DNA of 33,455 nt from assembly GCA_025928585.1 (NCBI GenBank), contig JAICJG010000018.1, positions 1 through 33,455 on the forward strand, in the 5' to 3' direction. Below, piece by piece: positions 2,276-33,455 of this stretch. The position numbers were made by a program, and so were the translations under genes. A model generated the notes under the pieces. The model made no database searches. It had not been told where the DNA came from and saw only the letters and a list, made by a program, of their open reading frames with translations. This DNA is from Rhodanobacteraceae bacterium. GTDB taxonomy: Bacteria > Pseudomonadota > Gammaproteobacteria > Xanthomonadales > Rhodanobacteraceae. Position 1 is the stretch's first letter. Every line of letters starts with the position of its first letter.

Positions 2276-5200
2276 TCAGACGTGGGTGGTGGAGCGGGCC
2301 TTGGCGATCAATCCCGCCACGTAGCGCATGCTCGTCAGCCGCTGCGCTTCCGCCGACGCGCCGGCGATCTGCTGCGCCGCTTCGGTGAGCGCGGCATCGC
2401 GCAGCTTGCGGCCGTTCGCGGTGCCCGGCTGTGAAATCGCGCTGACGTACAGCGCATAGGCGTAGTCATGGCGGAAGGTGGTGCCGGTCGCGCCCGCCTT
2501 CTGTTGTTGGTCGTACCACGCCAGCGCCGGTTGCAGGACTTTCTGCGCTTCGTCGTTGCGGCCCTGCATCGCGATCGCCTGTGCGAGGACGAATCGGGCG
2601 CGCGATTCGCGCGGCTTCGGGTCGGTTTGCGTGGCTGCCGCATTCGGGATGATCGCCAACCACTGTCGCGCCAGAGCTTCTGCTTGTGCGTAGTGCCCGA
2701 GTCGCATGGCCGCCCGCGTGGCGACGTTGAGACCGTCTGCCAGATTCTGGTTCTTCCAGCGGGTTGCGCCTGCGTCCGTCGACGGCACCTCGATCGGCTG
2801 GATTGTGGCGCGCGCCTCGGTGGCTTCGGCCAACGCCGGTTGCAGCGCACCCTGGCTCAGTTTGATATCCCCGAGTGCGAGCGGCAGGTTGGTTGCCGCA
2901 AGCCGGCGCTGGGGAGAACCAGGCGGTCGATCCGCCATCAGCGATTGCAAATCGCGCACGGCGGTCTGCGCTGACTGCTCCGCCCCCGCTTCGCCGTTCT
3001 CCGCGATGGCCCTCGCGAGGTTGAGCCGGATGTACCAGGTCACGGCAGCGAGAGGTTTGGGGCTGCGCGGGTCCTGCGCCAGCGCCAGCGCCGCGCGCAG
3101 GGTGGCGATGGATGTCGATACCTCGCCACGCTCGAACTGGAATGTCGCAACCTGGGTCCGGGCCTGCGCCAACCTGCCCCAGGCATCGACACTGGACGGG
3201 TCGAAGCGTACCCAATCCTCGGCGGCCTGCACGGCTTCGTCCGCATGCTTCGCGGCCGCCGCCGCGTCGTGCCGGCCCGCAGCAAGGTCGCCGAGCCGCT
3301 TCACGGCAAAGAAGCGATCTTCCAGCGAATGCAGGTCGCCCGGCCGGCGCGCCAGGACCTTTTCGGTCATCGCGAACACCTGCTGCTCCAGCTTTTCGGC
3401 TTCGTCGATGCGGCCGAGCGCCTGCAGTTCCCCGGACTTGGTATCGGCGGTGTCGGCCCAGGAGGCCGCGGCATTCAGGTCCGACAAATCCAGCGCGCCG
3501 AGGCCTGCCAGCGTCCTGAGCGCTTCGTCGCAGGTTGCCAGGCCTTGCTGCGGCCGCTGGTTGAGGCAGATGATGTTCAAGGTGTCGGCGTAAAGCTGCC
3601 GTACCCGGTGCGACGGATTGGCACCGTTGACCAGCGGCCGCAGCAGGGCGGCGGCCTGGTCCATCGGCGCCGAACTCCCGCCGCCCACGGCGGATCCGTA
3701 ATTCGCGTTGTACAGGATCGAGGCGAGGCCATAGACCACGGGTTCGCCGTCGTCGCCCGCTGCGCGCAGCTTCGCGAAGATCGCCTGGGCTTCGCCGAAA
3801 TTCTTGCGCGCGGCTTTGTCGTCGCCGCTGGCATTCTGGGCTGAACCGAGGCGCACCAGCGCCATCGCCTTGTTGATTTCGGTTTCCGGGGTGAGCAACG
3901 CCGGCGGCAGGCCGTCGTAGTAATCCACGGTTTTCTGCGCCAGCATGCCCAGCGTGCCGAGCCGGCCGGTGGGCGCGAGCTCGTCGTAGAAATCATCGAT
4001 CATGAAGCCGACCAGGTTCTCCGCATGCGTGCGCGAGGCCTGGGCTTCCGCTTGCGCGATCTTGGCGCGGTGCATGCCGATGAAGCCGAAGACCGCGGCG
4101 ATAATCGCGAGTACCAGCAACACTACGCATACCGTCGCGACCATGCGCGTGCGCAGCAGCGCGCGGTGGGTGGCCGCCTCGCGCTCGCGCTGCGCGGCGA
4201 GCTGATGTTCGGCCTGCTCGCGCGCCTCGCGCTCGCGGCGCAGGTTGCGGCTGGCCAGCACCACCGGGCACAGCACGTCGTGGGTCAACTCGACCCTGCG
4301 CATGTCGAGGCGTTCCTCGATCCGCAGCAAACGCCGGTTGACCAGCGTCGCCAGCGTGTCCGGTTCGGCGCCAGCCACGGCGAGCGCCTTGGCCACCCGT
4401 TCCTCGGCCAGGCTTTCGCGGTAGCCCGATTCGGTGAGCAGCTCATCCTCGATCACGCGCCGAACGCCGGCCGGCTGGTCGGCCAGCGCGCGCTCGTAGA
4501 ATTCGCTCAGGATGGTCTCGCGTGATCCGGCCAGGAGATCGGTCGAGATTTCCTCGCGCCCCTGCGACAGCCGGATGTTGTTGAGTTCGCGGCACACGAG
4601 GCTCAGCAATGACGGCTCGATTTCGGCGTTGACCAGTTCCGAACCGCCGGCGACGAAGCGCACGATCGATTCGGCGACTTCCCGCGACACCAGCTTTCCG
4701 CCCGGCTTCACCACCGCGTTCAAAGCCTGCGCGCCATTCATCCGCGCCAAGCGCATGCGGTTCTGGGTGATCGAAGGCATGCTGGCCTTCAGCCCTTCCA
4801 GGTGCGCGAGGTAATCCTCGCGCAGGGCGATCAACATGCGGTAATCCGCGCGCGCGAAATCGAAATCGTCCGCAGCGGTGTCGTCCTCCTCCAGCCTCGC
4901 CTCCAGCGCCGCGGGCGCGCGGTTTTCGACCAGGTCGGCCAGGTCTTCCAGGAATTGCTTGGCGCGCAGGCGGCCGGCGTCGTCGGCCTGGCCGAGCGTG
5001 AAGATTTCCTCGAACTGGTCGAAGATCAGCAGCGGTATCAGCGCGCGGCCTTCCGCGTCGCGCAGCAGGTCACCGCGGTGGTGCAGGAATTCCCACAGCG
5101 ACTCGCCCTGGATGGCGGCGCCCGGCCGCGTCCAGTGGCCGGCAGCCTCGGTGGCGCGGAAGATCGCGTGCTTGATCTGCTCGGAAGGCGCAGGCGACGC

Positions 5201-5476
5201 GGCCGCATAATCGATGCGCACGTACACCGGGCAATAGCCATCGTTGCGCAGCCGCGGCACCAGGCCCGCGCGCAGCAGCGATGTCTTGCCGAGGCCGGAT
5301 TGGCCGAACAGCACGGTCAGGATCTTGCGTTGCACCCGGCGCGCGAGCTCGGCGGCTTCCTCGTCGCGGCCGTGGAAATACGCGCGCGTCTCCTCGGTGT
5401 AGGAAAACAGGCCCAGCCACGGATTCTCCGGATCGAGCGTGACCGTGTCGGTGCCGCCGGCGTGGCCGTCGTTCAT
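2276..5476 (-). CDS. nSTAND-type NTPase with membrane helix and C-terminal TPR-like repeats (conflict/defence protein)
   Basis: 1066 residues. After a short leader, YFHGRDEEAAEL (about 33-44) opens an nSTAND1-like P-loop module. The Walker A is GQSGLGKT (58-65) and the Walker B is LLIFDQFEE (149-157). A winged-helix-like end carries ELTHDVLCPVV (about 396-406). A charged stretch (410-440) leads to one strong transmembrane helix (about 446-467), followed by a long alanine-rich helical region to the C-terminus that reads as TPR-like repeats. STAND proteins act as switch NTPases that oligomerise when their repeats sense a trigger. There is no effector domain on this protein; the effector is the upstream SIR2-TIR gene, overlapped by ATGA (start codon 5474-5476), so translation is coupled. 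The frame stays open upstream to about 5746, but that part overlaps the neighbour and reads as non-protein-like Arg/Pro-rich sequence. An anti-phage role is inferred. Confidence 0.85.
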   Translation of the reverse strand: MNDGHAGGTDTVTLDPENPWLGLFSYTEETRAYFHGRDEEAAELARRVQRKILTVLFGQSGLGKTSLLRAGLVPRLRNDGYCPVYVRIDYAAASPAPSEQIKHAIFRATEAAGHWTRPGAAIQGESLWEFLHHRGDLLRDAEGRALIPLLIFDQFEEIFTLGQADDAGRLRAKQFLEDLADLVENRAPAALEARLEEDDTAADDFDFARADYRMLIALREDYLAHLEGLKASMPSITQNRMRLARMNGAQALNAVVKPGGKLVSREVAESIVRFVAGGSELVNAEIEPSLLSLVCRELNNIRLSQGREEISTDLLAGSRETILSEFYERALADQPAGVRRVIEDELLTESGYRESLAEERVAKALAVAGAEPDTLATLVNRRLLRIEERLDMRRVELTHDVLCPVVLASRNLRREREAREQAEHQLAAQREREAATHRALLRTRMVATVCVVLLVLAIIAAVFGFIGMHRAKIAQAEAQASRTHAENLVGFMIDDFYDELAPTGRLGTLGMLAQKTVDYYDGLPPALLTPETEINKAMALVRLGSAQNASGDDKAARKNFGEAQAIFAKLRAAGDDGEPVVYGLASILYNANYGSAVGGGSSAPMDQAAALLRPLVNGANPSHRVRQLYADTLNIICLNQRPQQGLATCDEALRTLAGLGALDLSDLNAAASWADTADTKSGELQALGRIDEAEKLEQQVFAMTEKVLARRPGDLHSLEDRFFAVKRLGDLAAGRHDAAAAAKHADEAVQAAEDWVRFDPSSVDAWGRLAQARTQVATFQFERGEVSTSIATLRAALALAQDPRSPKPLAAVTWYIRLNLARAIAENGEAGAEQSAQTAVRDLQSLMADRPPGSPQRRLAATNLPLALGDIKLSQGALQPALAEATEARATIQPIEVPSTDAGATRWKNQNLADGLNVATRAAMRLGHYAQAEALARQWLAIIPNAAATQTDPKPRESRARFVLAQAIAMQGRNDEAQKVLQPALAWYDQQQKAGATGTTFRHDYAYALYVSAISQPGTANGRKLRDAALTEAAQQIAGASAEAQRLTSMRYVAGLIAKARSTTHV

Positions 5477-6858
5477 GCGGACCTCCCGCTGAACAGATCC
5501 TGCAGGCGGCGCAGGAATTCCGGTGTCGGTTCGCCGCCCGACAGCCGGGTCATGTGCACGGCCTTGAAATGGTCCGGCACCAGCGCGGCGGATTCCGGTG
5601 TGTCGTCGATGCACACCGGCAGGATGAACACGGCGCCGCCGGCCATGTTGCGCACGCGATCGACGGCGTAGCTCCATTCGCGGCGGAAGTAGGCCTCGAA
5701 ACGGTGCTGGGTGGTGGCCGAGATCACCGGCACGAAGTAACTGCAACGGGCGATATTGGCGCGGATCTTGCGGTCGTAGTCGTCGCCGCCTTCCAGCCGG
5801 TCGAGATCGAACCAGGTGGTCATGCCCGCGGCGTCCATGCCGGCCTTCAGCCGCTGCACGGAGGCAAGATCCTCGCGCGCGTAGCTGATGAAGATCGCGT
5901 TTTCGGGCATTTCGCGGGCGGGTGGCAGGAACCGCAGCGGCGCGCCGCCATTGGCCGAAGGCACGCCAGCCTGGCGAGCACTCCAGCGCTGATGCAATTC
6001 CGCGACGAAGGTTTCCGCGCCGCCGTACACGCGGGTACGCACGCTGACCTGCTGCAGGAACGCGACCAGTCGTCCATCCTGCAGCGTGTGATCGTCGGCG
6101 AATACCTCGGTGACGTCACGCGGATCGGATAGCCGCTTGCGCTTGGCCATGCGCAGGAAAAGGCGCGCCAGCCAGTTCGAAAAATCGCTGCCGATCAGAA
6201 GCAGGTGACTGTGTTCGAGCTCGTGGAAAAGCTTCTCCGGCGTCAGGTGTTCGGACTGCAGCGCGCAGATGAACTCCAGCATGTCCTCGTCGGAGAGCAC
6301 GTACGTCGGCGAGGCGGACAAGCGCCCGAGCAGGTGATAGACCACCGTGCGCGACAGGTTGGCGCGTTCGCTCGGCAGGTCGGCAACGCGGTTCGGTGTA
6401 TAGGCGATCACCTCGGCGCCGGGTTGGCCACCGTACCGTTCGAGGTTGACGGCATTTTCCAGCAGCGGATCGAACGTGGTGGTGACGAACAGGTCGAAGT
6501 CGGTGATCTGCGCCAGTTGCCGCAAGGGCCGCGGCGGTTCGAAGTGCATCTCGCGCATGATCGAGCGCAGACGCGTGTACGCCTCCTCGCGCCGCCCGTG
6601 CTGGCCGAGATAGCTGCACATCACGTCGTTGAGCGTCAGCGGCTGCGGCAGCCCGACAGGATCCACCGACAGCCGTGCCGCCAGTTTTTCCGCCAGCCAG
6701 ACGTACAGCGGACGCAGGCCGCTTTCGGTCTGCACGCGCAAAAGGTCGGGTCCGATGATCGGGATGACCCGGTGCTCCTCGATGTAGTTGAGGAGATCGT
6801 CCCAGGCGTCTTCATCGAAAGACGGCACGGGATCCGTCGCGGCGGGAAGCGTTGACAT
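5473..6858 (-). CDS. SIR2-like/TIR domain fusion protein, putative NADase effector
   Basis: 461 residues, no signal peptide or membrane helix. The N-terminal part (about 15-290) is a SIR2-like domain: IIGPDLL (34-40) at the nucleotide loop, [10 protein letters not shown] (125-134) at the position of the usual TTNYD motif, YHLLG with His175, and [13 protein letters not shown] (220-232). A linker leads to a C-terminal TIR domain: [10 protein letters not shown] (321-330), [13 protein letters not shown] (349-361), and Glu394 in FRREWSYA at the place of the catalytic Glu of NAD-cleaving TIRs. The usual SIR2 Asn is replaced by Thr128, so the SIR2 part may bind rather than cleave NAD. TIR and SIR2 domains are known NAD-depleting effectors of bacterial immunity. 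The gene is first of a pair with the STAND NTPase and is divergent from uvrB. The start ATG is at 6856-6858. Confidence 0.85.
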
Positions 6859-31072: not shown

Positions 31073-31483
31073 ATGATCCAGCAGCAGACCGTCTCACTTG
31101 AGGACGCCCGCCGCATCATCGTTGCCGGGGAGCAAAAGGCCCGCGACATCGGCCAGCCGATGAACATCGCGGTGGTCGACGATGGCGGCAACCTGGTGGC
31201 GTTCGCGCACATGGACGGCGCATGGAAAGGCAGCGTCGACATCGCCGTAAACAAGGCCTTCACGTCCGCCATGTTTACGATTCCGACAAAAGCGCTCGCC
31301 CAAAAGGCACAACCGGGTGAAGCGTTCTACGGAATCCACGTCTCCAACCACGGTCGTGTAATGATTTTCCCGGGCGGCATTCCGTTGAAAGCGGGCGATC
31401 AGGTGATCGGCGCCGTGGGCGTGAGTGGCGGCGACAACTCGCAGGACCAGAGCGTCGCGGAAGCCGCCGCGGCGGCACTTTGA
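31073..31483 (+). CDS. GlcG/HbpS-family (DUF336-type) protein
   Basis: 136 residues. The sequence has the family layout: SLEDARRIIVAGEQKARDIG helix, NIAVVDDGGNLVAFAHMDGA beta-hairpin, a central helix with SVDIAVNKAFTSAMF, FYGIHVSNHGRVMIFPGGIP and the closing GDQVIGAVGVSGG. Family members include the haem-binding HbpS of Streptomyces and GlcG of glycolate loci; proteins of this type are frequently encoded near PQQ-dependent alcohol dehydrogenases, as here, 702 bases upstream. There is no signal peptide, so this copy is probably cytoplasmic. The start is well fixed by AAGGAG 8 bases before the ATG. A sigma-54-like promoter lies about 160 bases upstream. Whether haem or another ligand binds cannot be told from the sequence. 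Confidence 0.88.
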   Translation: MIQQQTVSLEDARRIIVAGEQKARDIGQPMNIAVVDDGGNLVAFAHMDGAWKGSVDIAVNKAFTSAMFTIPTKALAQKAQPGEAFYGIHVSNHGRVMIFPGGIPLKAGDQVIGAVGVSGGDNSQDQSVAEAAAAAL

Positions 31484-31619
31484 GCGTGCGCGCCAAGCGA
31501 CGGGGAAGCGTGCAAGCCGGCGGCCTCATGCACACGCGCAGTCCATCCATCTTGACAGCCCGAATTTTCAGCGTAGCGTTTTTCTGACAACCGGACGACG
31601 CACAGGCACGGAGGCCGCG

Positions 31620-32132
31620 ATGCGTACTTTCCCGCTTTCGGTTTTGCTGGTTTTTCCACTCGCGGCCGGTGCAGCACAGCCCCCGCAGGTCTCGTCGCAG
31701 GATGGCAGCTGGCTCATCGCCGCGCATCAGGACAACCTCGCCGAAATCAAGTCCGGCGATCTGGCTGCAGAGAAGGGCCACGATGCCGATGTGCGCGCGG
31801 CGGCGCGGACGCTGGCCCGGGATCACGGGAATCTGGACGCCAAGCTGCGGCCGGTAGCGAAGCAGCTCGGGGTAAAACTTCCGACCCGGCCGAATGCCGA
31901 GCAACGCGACGAGATGCGCAAGTTCAAGAGCGCATCGGGCGTCGACTTCGACCGCACCTGGACCCATGACGAGGCGGACGGCCACGTCAAGGCCATCGAG
32001 CTGACCGTACGCGAGATCCAGCACGGCTCGCTGCCACAGGTGAAGCACCTCGCGCAGTCGGCGCTGCCCGTTCTGAAGAAGCACCTGCACATGCTGCAGC
32101 AGACCCAGTCGGCCCGCAGCGGCAATCAATGA
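31620..32132 (+). CDS. Exported DUF4142 protein
   Basis: 170 residues: a signal peptide (about 1-19, LSVLLVFPLAAGAA) followed by a helical DUF4142 domain. Typical features are the starts SSQDGSWLIAAHQDNLAEIK and SGDLAAEKGHDADVRAAA, ARTLARDHGNLDAKL, and the C-terminal helix KHLHMLQQ, with several His residues at ferritin-like positions. The family is periplasmic or outer-membrane associated with unknown function, sometimes linked to stress. GGAGG lies about 6 bases before the ATG. It lies 136 bases after the GlcG-type gene and 52 bases before the PQQ dehydrogenase gene, all co-directional, so the three may form one transcript. The ORF is open further upstream but lacks a signal peptide there. 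Confidence 0.85.
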   Translation: MRTFPLSVLLVFPLAAGAAQPPQVSSQDGSWLIAAHQDNLAEIKSGDLAAEKGHDADVRAAARTLARDHGNLDAKLRPVAKQLGVKLPTRPNAEQRDEMRKFKSASGVDFDRTWTHDEADGHVKAIELTVREIQHGSLPQVKHLAQSALPVLKKHLHMLQQTQSARSGNQ

Positions 32133-32184: not shown

Positions 32185-33455
32185 ATGAAAATGCTCGCTC
32201 TGGCCATGGCCGTTTCAGCAGCCCTGCTCGCGACGTCGATGGCGCGCGCGCAGACGCACCCGGCCAAGCCAGCCTCAGCCGGCAGCGCAGCCGCGCAATC
32301 GGCGATGGGCGCGAGCGTCACGCAGTTGGCAAGCAATCCGTCCGACTGGCCCATGCCGGGCAAGAACTACGCGGGTACGCGCTTCAGCGGCCTCAAACAG
32401 ATCGACGCGAACAACGTCAGGAATCTCACCGTCGCCTGGACCTTTTCGACCGGCGTACTGCGCGGCCATGAGGCGGCGCCGATCGTGGTCGGCGACACGA
32501 TGTACGTCATAACCCCCTGGCCCGACATCCTCTATGCGCTCGACCTTTCGAAGGATGGCGCCATCAAGTGGGTGTTCAAGCCATACCCGTCGCGCGCCTC
32601 CCAGGGTGTCGCCTGTTGCGACGTGGTGAACCGGGGCGTCGCCTACTCCGACGGCAAGATCTTCATGAATACCCTGGACGATCACACGATCGCCGTCGAC
32701 GCCAAGACCGGCAAGCAGGTCTGGAACACCAAGATCGGGGACATCAACCACGGCGAAACCATCACGATGGCTCCGCTGGTGGTGAAGAACCACGTACTGG
32801 TGGGTGTCAGCGGCGGCGAGATGGGCGTGCGCGGCTGGCTGAAATCACTCGATACCAATACGGGCAAGGTGCAATGGACCGCGTATTCCACGGGTCCCGA
32901 CAAGGACGTGCTGATCGGCAAGGACTTCAATCCGCCGTACCCGGAAGACAAGGGGCCGAACCTCGGCGAGACGAGCTGGCCGAACAAGGCTGCGTGGATG
33001 ATCGGCGGCGGGCCGGTGTGGGGCTGGATCACCTACGACCCGAAACAGGACCTGATCTATTACGGCACCGGGAATCCTGGACCATGGAACTCCTACCAGC
33101 GGCCCGGCCTGAATTTCTGGACCTGCACGCTGTTTGCCCGCGATCCCGATACCGGGATGGCGAAGTGGGCGGTGCAGTGGAACCCGCACGACACGCACGA
33201 CTACGACGGCGTCAACGAGAACGTGCTGTTCAACGCGAAGATCGACGGCAAGGAGCGCGAGTTGCTGGCCCATCCGGACCGCAACGGCTTCATGTACGTG
33301 CAGGATCGCACCACCGGCAAGATCGTTTCGGCCCAGCCGTTCATGCAGGGCATCAACAGCATCGAGCGCATCAATCTCGTGACGGGCGCACCGGTGGTGA
33401 ATCCCGCCAAGGTGCCGCAGCTCGGCAAGACTGTCCATGACATCTGCCCGGCCTC
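32185..33455 (+). CDS. PQQ-dependent alcohol dehydrogenase with lanthanide-type active site, 3' end cut by window
   Basis: The frame is open from the ATG at 32185 to the window end, giving 423 residues of an expected 580-620. A signal peptide (about 1-23, ending MARA) sends it to the periplasm. Quinoprotein features are present: DWPMPGKNYAGTRFSGL, the adjacent cysteine pair Cys144-Cys145 (ACCDVVNRG) that forms the disulfide ring over PQQ, metal ligand Glu212 in GGEMGVRGW, Asn297 in GTGNPGPWN, and catalytic Asp339 in HDTHDYDGVN. Asp341, two residues after the catalytic Asp, is the extra ligand diagnostic of lanthanide-dependent XoxF-type enzymes; calcium MxaF enzymes have Ala there. It oxidises primary alcohols and feeds a cytochrome c. 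A strong ribosome binding site, AAGGAGG, precedes the start. The usual RPGDNKW segment reads RPGLNFW. The cytochrome partner is not in view. Confidence 0.93.
   Translation, partial: MKMLALAMAVSAALLATSMARAQTHPAKPASAGSAAAQSAMGASVTQLASNPSDWPMPGKNYAGTRFSGLKQIDANNVRNLTVAWTFSTGVLRGHEAAPIVVGDTMYVITPWPDILYALDLSKDGAIKWVFKPYPSRASQGVACCDVVNRGVAYSDGKIFMNTLDDHTIAVDAKTGKQVWNTKIGDINHGETITMAPLVVKNHVLVGVSGGEMGVRGWLKSLDTNTGKVQWTAYSTGPDKDVLIGKDFNPPYPEDKGPNLGETSWPNKAAWMIGGGPVWGWITYDPKQDLIYYGTGNPGPWNSYQRPGLNFWTCTLFARDPDTGMAKWAVQWNPHDTHDYDGVNENVLFNAKIDGKERELLAHPDRNGFMYVQDRTTGKIVSAQPFMQGINSIERINLVTGAPVVNPAKVPQLGKTVHDICPA

Follow-up and report, generated by a model that had tools for sequence, protein, structure and literature searches.

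XoxF3-type dehydrogenases have been described for Rokubacteria, Gemmatimonadota and Bryobacteraceae, and accounted for 340 of the 411 XoxF sequences in a study of weathered granite and soil (PMC10875860). The same study describes XoxF3 clusters encoding CoxI-III, CtaG, XoxG and XoxJ, cites an earlier mini-review for the presence of cox and ctaG genes in a few xoxF3 operons and states that XoxF3 systems are without experimental or biochemical study. Gene clusters combining XoxF3 and an oxidase are already known, with hardly any laboratory testing. PQQ is made by 16 of the 38 XoxF genomes reported in that study and not by the rest, and scavenging of PQQ by XoxF bacteria has already been proposed (PMC12124388; PMC10875860). 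Several xoxF3 copies have been reported for Methylocaldum (PMC12482762).

The locus described here lies in a window of 33,455 nucleotides (i.e. the whole stretch of DNA analysed, equal to all of contig C165 in an assembly of 183 contigs and 2.73 Mb) from a Rhodanobacteraceae bacterium. An open reading frame at 32185-33453 (+), starting with the ATG at 32185 and truncated by the end of the window, very probably encodes a XoxF3-type lanthanide/PQQ methanol/alcohol dehydrogenase heading a self-contained periplasmic respiratory module. The features of this gene and its upstream neighbours are listed below, where clade rows are those of the 42-row clade in the XoxF tree.

31073..31483, + strand: HbpS-like protein (PF03928), found near xoxF in 9 of the 51 named loci (script threshold)
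31620..32132, + strand: DUF4142 protein (PF13628), 5' of xoxF; also upstream of xoxF3 in L031, L071 (i.e. the G083 locus) and L004
32173..32179, + strand: AAGGAGG, 5 bases 5' of the ATG, a putative ribosome-binding site from direct reading
32185..33455, + strand: xoxF3, first 423 of 619 codons, with the remainder on contig C53 (open reading frame, alignment and tree)
32185..32253, + strand: probable Sec signal peptide, residues 1-23 (by-eye reading of the translation)
32614..32619, + strand: Cys144-Cys145 (C at both positions in 42 of 42 clade rows)
32818..32820, + strand: Glu212 (conserved in all but one of the 42 clade rows, which has D)
33073..33075, + strand: Asn297 (conserved in all 42 clade rows)
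33199..33201, + strand: Asp339 (conserved in all 42 clade rows)
33205..33207, + strand: Asp341, the XoxF-type extra carboxylate (Asp in all 58 XoxF rows counted versus Ala in all seven MxaF-group rows)

A scan for sigma-70 promoters 5' of the gene returned no site. By eye, TTGACA and TAGCGT separated by 16 bases were seen at 31552-31579, 5' of the DUF4142-xoxF pair, and are a possible promoter candidate below the strength required by the scan. The first 141 bases of contig C53 (minus strand) from the same genome were identical to the last 141 bases of the window, and joining of the two contigs produced a complete XoxF of 619 residues. The same gene order in locus L031 and in G083, a genome on a single contig, supported this join.

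The original prediction had placed a catalytic Asp followed by Tyr and a second Asp at 33181-33210. Translation of these bases in the frame of the ATG at 32185 gave NPHDTHDYDG (i.e. residues 333-342), with D-Y-D at residues 339-341 and Tyr340 at 33202-33204 (+), exactly as proposed. The claimed MxaF-like spacing of 42 between Asn297 and Asp339 also held, as chains 4tqo and 5xm3 aligned without gaps in this region; 4mae has one residue more between the Asn and the Asp. We take Cys144-Cys145 to be the adjacent-cysteine pair beside PQQ, Glu212 and Asn297 to be metal ligands and Asp339 to be the catalytic base. Alignment of the open reading frame with solved methanol dehydrogenases (4mae, E-values of 6e-133 for the 423-residue partial protein and 3.4e-200 for the completed protein) indicated that the DYD motif is not a chance occurrence. 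The partial protein scored 449.6 bits against the NCBIfam methanol/ethanol PQQ family, under the cut-off of 480.05, probably because the gene is truncated.

Relatives were collected by a pattern-seeded scan using one genome per species, producing 51 loci that include methylotrophs, Rokubacteria, Gemmatimonadales and Bryobacteraceae. A XoxF tree of 72 rows was built by a quick method with SH-aLRT support alone; 18 of the 90 aligned rows were left out, 11 as fragments, paralogues or broken or odd sequences and seven as judged near-duplicates. The omitted rows include two distant paralogues (L107 and L044_16780) and L092, which was unalignable at the motif. In another omitted row, L035:2532- from Phycisphaerales, Gly replaces the catalytic Asp and Asp replaces Asn297; this protein may be inactive, or the differences may reflect an alignment slip. 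The window XoxF belonged to a clade of 42 rows (SH-aLRT 99) that was separate from the seven-row MxaF group (100). Also outside the clade were the 4mae row, a group with 7o6z, rows resembling XoxF4/5, four rows of Vicinamibacteria type and two of ethanol type. Of the PDB chains, 4mae is taken to be XoxF2 and both 4tqo and 5xm3 are taken to be MxaF; the listing for 5xm3 names this chain 'Glucose dehydrogenase'. Residues were counted in 65 of the 72 rows, and position 341 was Asp in 42/42 clade rows and 16/16 other XoxF rows but Ala in the 7/7 MxaF-group rows. The seven uncounted rows (i.e. L093, L094, L104, L041, L043, L045 and L052) all have D at this position. The closest solved structure to the completed XoxF was 4mae (670 bits), with 541 bits for the best MxaF-type chain (4tqo), 339 bits for the ethanol enzyme 6zcv, presumably PedH, and 326 bits for the ethanol enzyme 1flg. 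An ExaF/PedH type was ruled out by the far weaker match to 6zcv than to 4mae.

As the tree contained no XoxF3-labelled reference, the name XoxF3 for the 42-row clade is inferred from its members (Rokubacteria, Gemmatimonadota and Bryobacteraceae) and gene order, both as in PMC10875860, and from copy number, with three Methylocaldum copies in the clade. The gene was completed and placed in a tree, as the original prediction had proposed; it groups with XoxF rather than MxaF enzymes and looks like XoxF3, not ExaF. A calcium-dependent PQQ alcohol dehydrogenase, in which the second Asp is present by chance or descent, is highly unlikely. The Glu, Asn and catalytic Asp are common to the MxaF group, as window XoxF is identical to the MxaF-group rows at these residues and at the cysteine pair, and a sequence by itself does not reveal metal use; however, the position outside the MxaF group in the tree, the Asp at 341 and the adjoining XoxJ gene all argue against calcium, and the first two of these ruled out an MxaF calcium enzyme. 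The XoxF clade and adjacent xoxJ support the lanthanide-type reading originally put forward, and lanthanide dependence of the window XoxF is strongly suggested. The strongest external evidence for a lanthanide-using XoxF3 comes from Methylosinus trichosporium, whose XoxF3 protein was increased with cerium by a log2 fold change of 7.66 (PMC12482762).

Downstream of the dehydrogenase, the genes are ordered xoxF-xoxJ-cytochrome-coxII-coxI-coxIII-small-ctaG. The same order is unbroken on the single contig of G083 (XoxF 90% identical) and recurs in L031, a Rhodanobacteraceae MAG (XoxF 89% identical), as would be expected if the host here is also a member of the Rhodanobacteraceae. The gene 3' of xoxF matched the solved XoxJ 6onp (E-value of 3e-45) and scored 274.2 bits against the NCBI model for quinoprotein-dehydrogenase-associated binding proteins, above the cut-off of 212.15. 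The c-type cytochrome gene following xoxJ occupies the place of xoxG; its product scored 33.9 bits against the MxaG model, under the cut-off of 147.8, and among solved structures it is closest to cbb3 oxidase subunits. Of the companions expected nearby, xoxJ is adjacent, and this c-type cytochrome is a candidate for XoxG. CoxII scored above the CoxB cut-off and has a fused cytochrome c domain (haem c), while CtaG also bears a cytochrome c domain. The small membrane protein between CoxIII and CtaG has 137 residues and no family match. For the 25 clade loci whose downstream flank reached 7 kb or more, the cytochrome was present nearby (script thresholds) in 25, XoxJ in 20, CoxII in 22, CoxI in 20, CoxIII in 18 and CtaG in 18.

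The linked CoxI (L003:2594-4534, minus strand, downstream of the window xoxF) is the least expected part of the cluster and the lead most worth following. This protein contains GHPWVY and SAVSVF in place of the GHPEVY and TGIKFF of solved A-type oxidases (e.g. 6adq), such that Trp replaces the D-channel Glu and Ser replaces the K-channel Lys. The CuB histidines and cross-linking Tyr, as we take these residues to be, were kept (i.e. HPWVY, VHH and AHLH aligned with 6adq). Of the canonical A1-type features, the linked CoxI therefore has the CuB ligands and Tyr but neither the D-channel Glu nor the K-channel Lys. A nitric oxide reductase was ruled out by the retained CuB histidines and Tyr. The K-channel Lys was replaced by Ser, Ala or Gln in 32/32 alignable CoxI rows from xoxF loci, one of which (L127) is tied to its xoxF only across a contig break, and was Lys in 16/16 other oxidases of the family genomes, representing 16 of 18 unlinked places with the short pieces L144 and L146 left out. 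These counts omit L049_4235, which was unalignable at the sites, and L125, a second query copy; the downstream CoxI of L016 was fragmented and uncounted, and the other L016 CoxI was counted. One of these Lys-bearing controls, L071_2649, shares a 20-kb stretch with the G083 xoxF and is ~13 kb away from it.

In a 67-row CoxI tree generated by a quick method, the Trp variant formed a single 16-row clade (support 98) nested in a 44-row clade without the K-channel Lys (i.e. K-less; support 100). A xoxF gene was in the same stretch for 15 of the 16 Trp-clade rows, with contigs breaking between the two genes in G096. The cluster with a Trp-variant oxidase also occurs in Aurantimonas (L023 and L050), a culturable relative. 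As most of these rows had been found via xoxF, the search was repeated from the oxidase side. In 369 genomes of the class, 13 other oxidase places scoring >490 bits were all K-less, with xoxF beside three; the Trp variant occurred in two of the 13, both with xoxF. Of 18 places with lower scores, seven were retrieved, each with Lys. A further 15 places fetched from 398 genomes of the phylum were all K-less, consisting of five Trp variants (xoxF beside three) and ten Glu variants (xoxF beside four). Over the whole oxidase-side search, xoxF was beside 5/7 Trp copies versus 5/21 others, these being related sequences. K-less oxidases as a XoxF-specific group were ruled out, as xoxF was absent from 10/13 class and 8/15 phylum stretches fetched (one K-less stretch, L186, spans just 7.5 kb). 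An invariable association of the Trp variant with xoxF was ruled out by two of the seven oxidase-side copies, L214 and L215, for which an 18-kb stretch lacked xoxF. A multi-haem cytochrome c is encoded near both of these oxidases, together with a Gfo/Idh/MocA oxidoreductase near that of L214; the cytochromes fit an outlet role for periplasmic dehydrogenases. Family A oxidases, at least archaeal ones, have been described in which the K-channel varies or is lost (PMC8239418). A literature search, mostly not of full texts, returned no description of XoxF-linked oxidases without the D-channel Glu and K-channel Lys. The residues of the linked oxidase suggest that proton pumping may be reduced.

A related dehydrogenase was present in 13 of 97 family genomes (E-value threshold of 1e-150), and four of these 13 have the XoxF3 type (i.e. 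this genome, G083, G046 and G096). Two tandem xoxF3 copies are present in G096 (L004 in the tree; L004:9770-13600), the second having DDD at the motif and not DYD. Another XoxF group (support 100) contains G003, G012, G021, G024 and G029; a member of this group, L066, best matched the solved XoxF 6oc5, and G045 and G058 share its motif and, being near-duplicates, were excluded from the tree. The remaining genomes are G044, which groups with 7o6z, and G004, which groups with MxaF.

These 13 genomes and three without a dehydrogenase at the same threshold were tested for PqqC and PqqE. Neither protein was found in 15 of the 16 genomes, including this one, where PqqE gave two weak matches and none above cut-off; G004 alone has both and is the sole PQQ maker of the 16. 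PqqU was found in 10 of 12 genomes tested, comprising 9/9 with a dehydrogenase and 1/3 without. The homologue in this genome (G000:C50:9929-11929) scored 565 bits with 43% identity to E. coli PqqU over nearly the full length, and among solved chains PqqU/YncD scored 566 bits and the next receptor 57. A PqqU with no detected PqqC or PqqE recurs in eight more of the family genomes in which the three proteins were sought, and G004 has all three. With a clear PqqU and no detected PqqC or PqqE, this bacterium probably scavenges PQQ. Of the pqq genes proposed as a check, those for PqqC and PqqE did not appear and one for an importer did. A decayed or unused acquisition, in which the enzyme is never loaded because PQQ is not synthesized, would accord with the missing PqqC and PqqE but is extremely improbable, given that the frame and active-site residues are intact, the cluster is also intact on the single-contig genome and PqqU accompanies every tested dehydrogenase-bearing genome.

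The sugar-using setting of the original prediction was corroborated by genes in the window for an alpha-amylase-family enzyme, GH31, GH39, glucokinase and a TonB receptor. Between 16120 and 28626, genes for a TonB receptor, a tryptophan-halogenase-like protein, the alpha-amylase-family enzyme, GH31, GH39 and a six-hairpin glycosidase lie in a row, a predicted sugar-uptake and degradation cluster. Elsewhere in the window (2276-6858, minus strand), an nSTAND1 ATPase gene adjoins a SIR2-TIR gene, a pair with the look of an anti-phage defence system. For C1 metabolism, Fae was found in 0/12 family genomes tested, with no match in this 183-contig assembly. A glutathione-type formaldehyde dehydrogenase scored above cut-off in 10 of these 12 genomes, with none above cut-off in this genome or G070.

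These observations bear on the substrate. A lanthanide enzyme acting on a substrate other than methanol (e.g. an aldehyde, or an alcohol that is longer or derived from sugar) and serving a sugar-degrading lifestyle is possible, if somewhat unlikely, and overlaps with the XoxF3 reading preferred here, the substrate being the sole difference. The glycoside hydrolases and glucokinase on the same contig favour such an enzyme, as do the results for Fae and formaldehyde dehydrogenase; against it, the similarity to a methanol dehydrogenase far exceeds that to the ethanol enzymes, and co-regulation of the sugar genes with xoxF3 is not required.

For the XoxF3 module itself, we infer the following metal, substrate, electron path and physiological role. 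The secreted XoxF3 would be loaded with imported PQQ, XoxJ would aid its activation, and a rare-earth ion would be held by Glu212, Asn297, Asp339 and Asp341. The enzyme would oxidize a short primary alcohol, methanol or another, and possibly also the resulting aldehyde. Electrons would pass from XoxF3 to the XoxG-like cytochrome c, then to CoxII (via CuA and the fused haem c) and to CoxI, which would reduce oxygen. With Fae and the glutathione-type formaldehyde dehydrogenase as the C1 routes searched, the module appears to be used for energy or for removal of alcohols and aldehydes, and not for production of biomass from C1 carbon. A wider and rather unlikely conjecture is that many proteobacterial XoxF3 enzymes feed private HPWVY oxidases that lack the D-channel gating Glu and the K-channel Lys and have little, no or rerouted proton pumping, in a lanthanide-dependent detoxification or redox-overflow respiration, sustained in this family by scavenged PQQ and metal, as opposed to classical methylotrophy.

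These results place a XoxF3 module in a sugar-using gammaproteobacterium without detected PQQ synthesis genes, with a close relative, G083, available as a single-contig genome. Two questions are testable now: whether rare-earth alcohol oxidation serves non-methylotrophs, and whether the oxidase packaged with XoxF3 still pumps protons.

Among the known systems, the XoxF2 of 4mae, presumably from Methylacidiphilum, shares 54.8% identity with the window protein over 564 aligned residues and has the same DYD, but falls outside the 42-row clade and is one residue longer between Asn and Asp. The MxaF chains 4tqo and 5xm3 have the Cys-Cys, Glu, Asn and Asp residues and the 42-residue spacing in common with the window XoxF, but contain DYA instead of DYD and form a separate tree group. 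The candidate importer resembles E. coli PqqU at the level of identity given above. The linked CoxI has Trp where Glu is kept in L020, the only relative from Acidobacteriota whose CoxI could be aligned. The XoxF3 systems of Acidobacteria, Gemmatimonadetes and Verrucomicrobia likewise have the extra Asp, XoxJ, CoxI-III, CtaG and CytC, together with XoxG, for which the c-type cytochrome is the candidate here, and most of the acidobacterial clusters have a small protein between CoxIII and CtaG, as here; the host of the present cluster is a Rhodanobacteraceae gammaproteobacterium, unlike the XoxF3 hosts described in that study (PMC10875860). Within the Xanthomonadales, a XoxF protein has been detected in the non-methanotrophic Dokdonella koreensis, where it was reported as XoxF1 (PMC8999231), whereas the enzyme described here is probably of the XoxF3 type.
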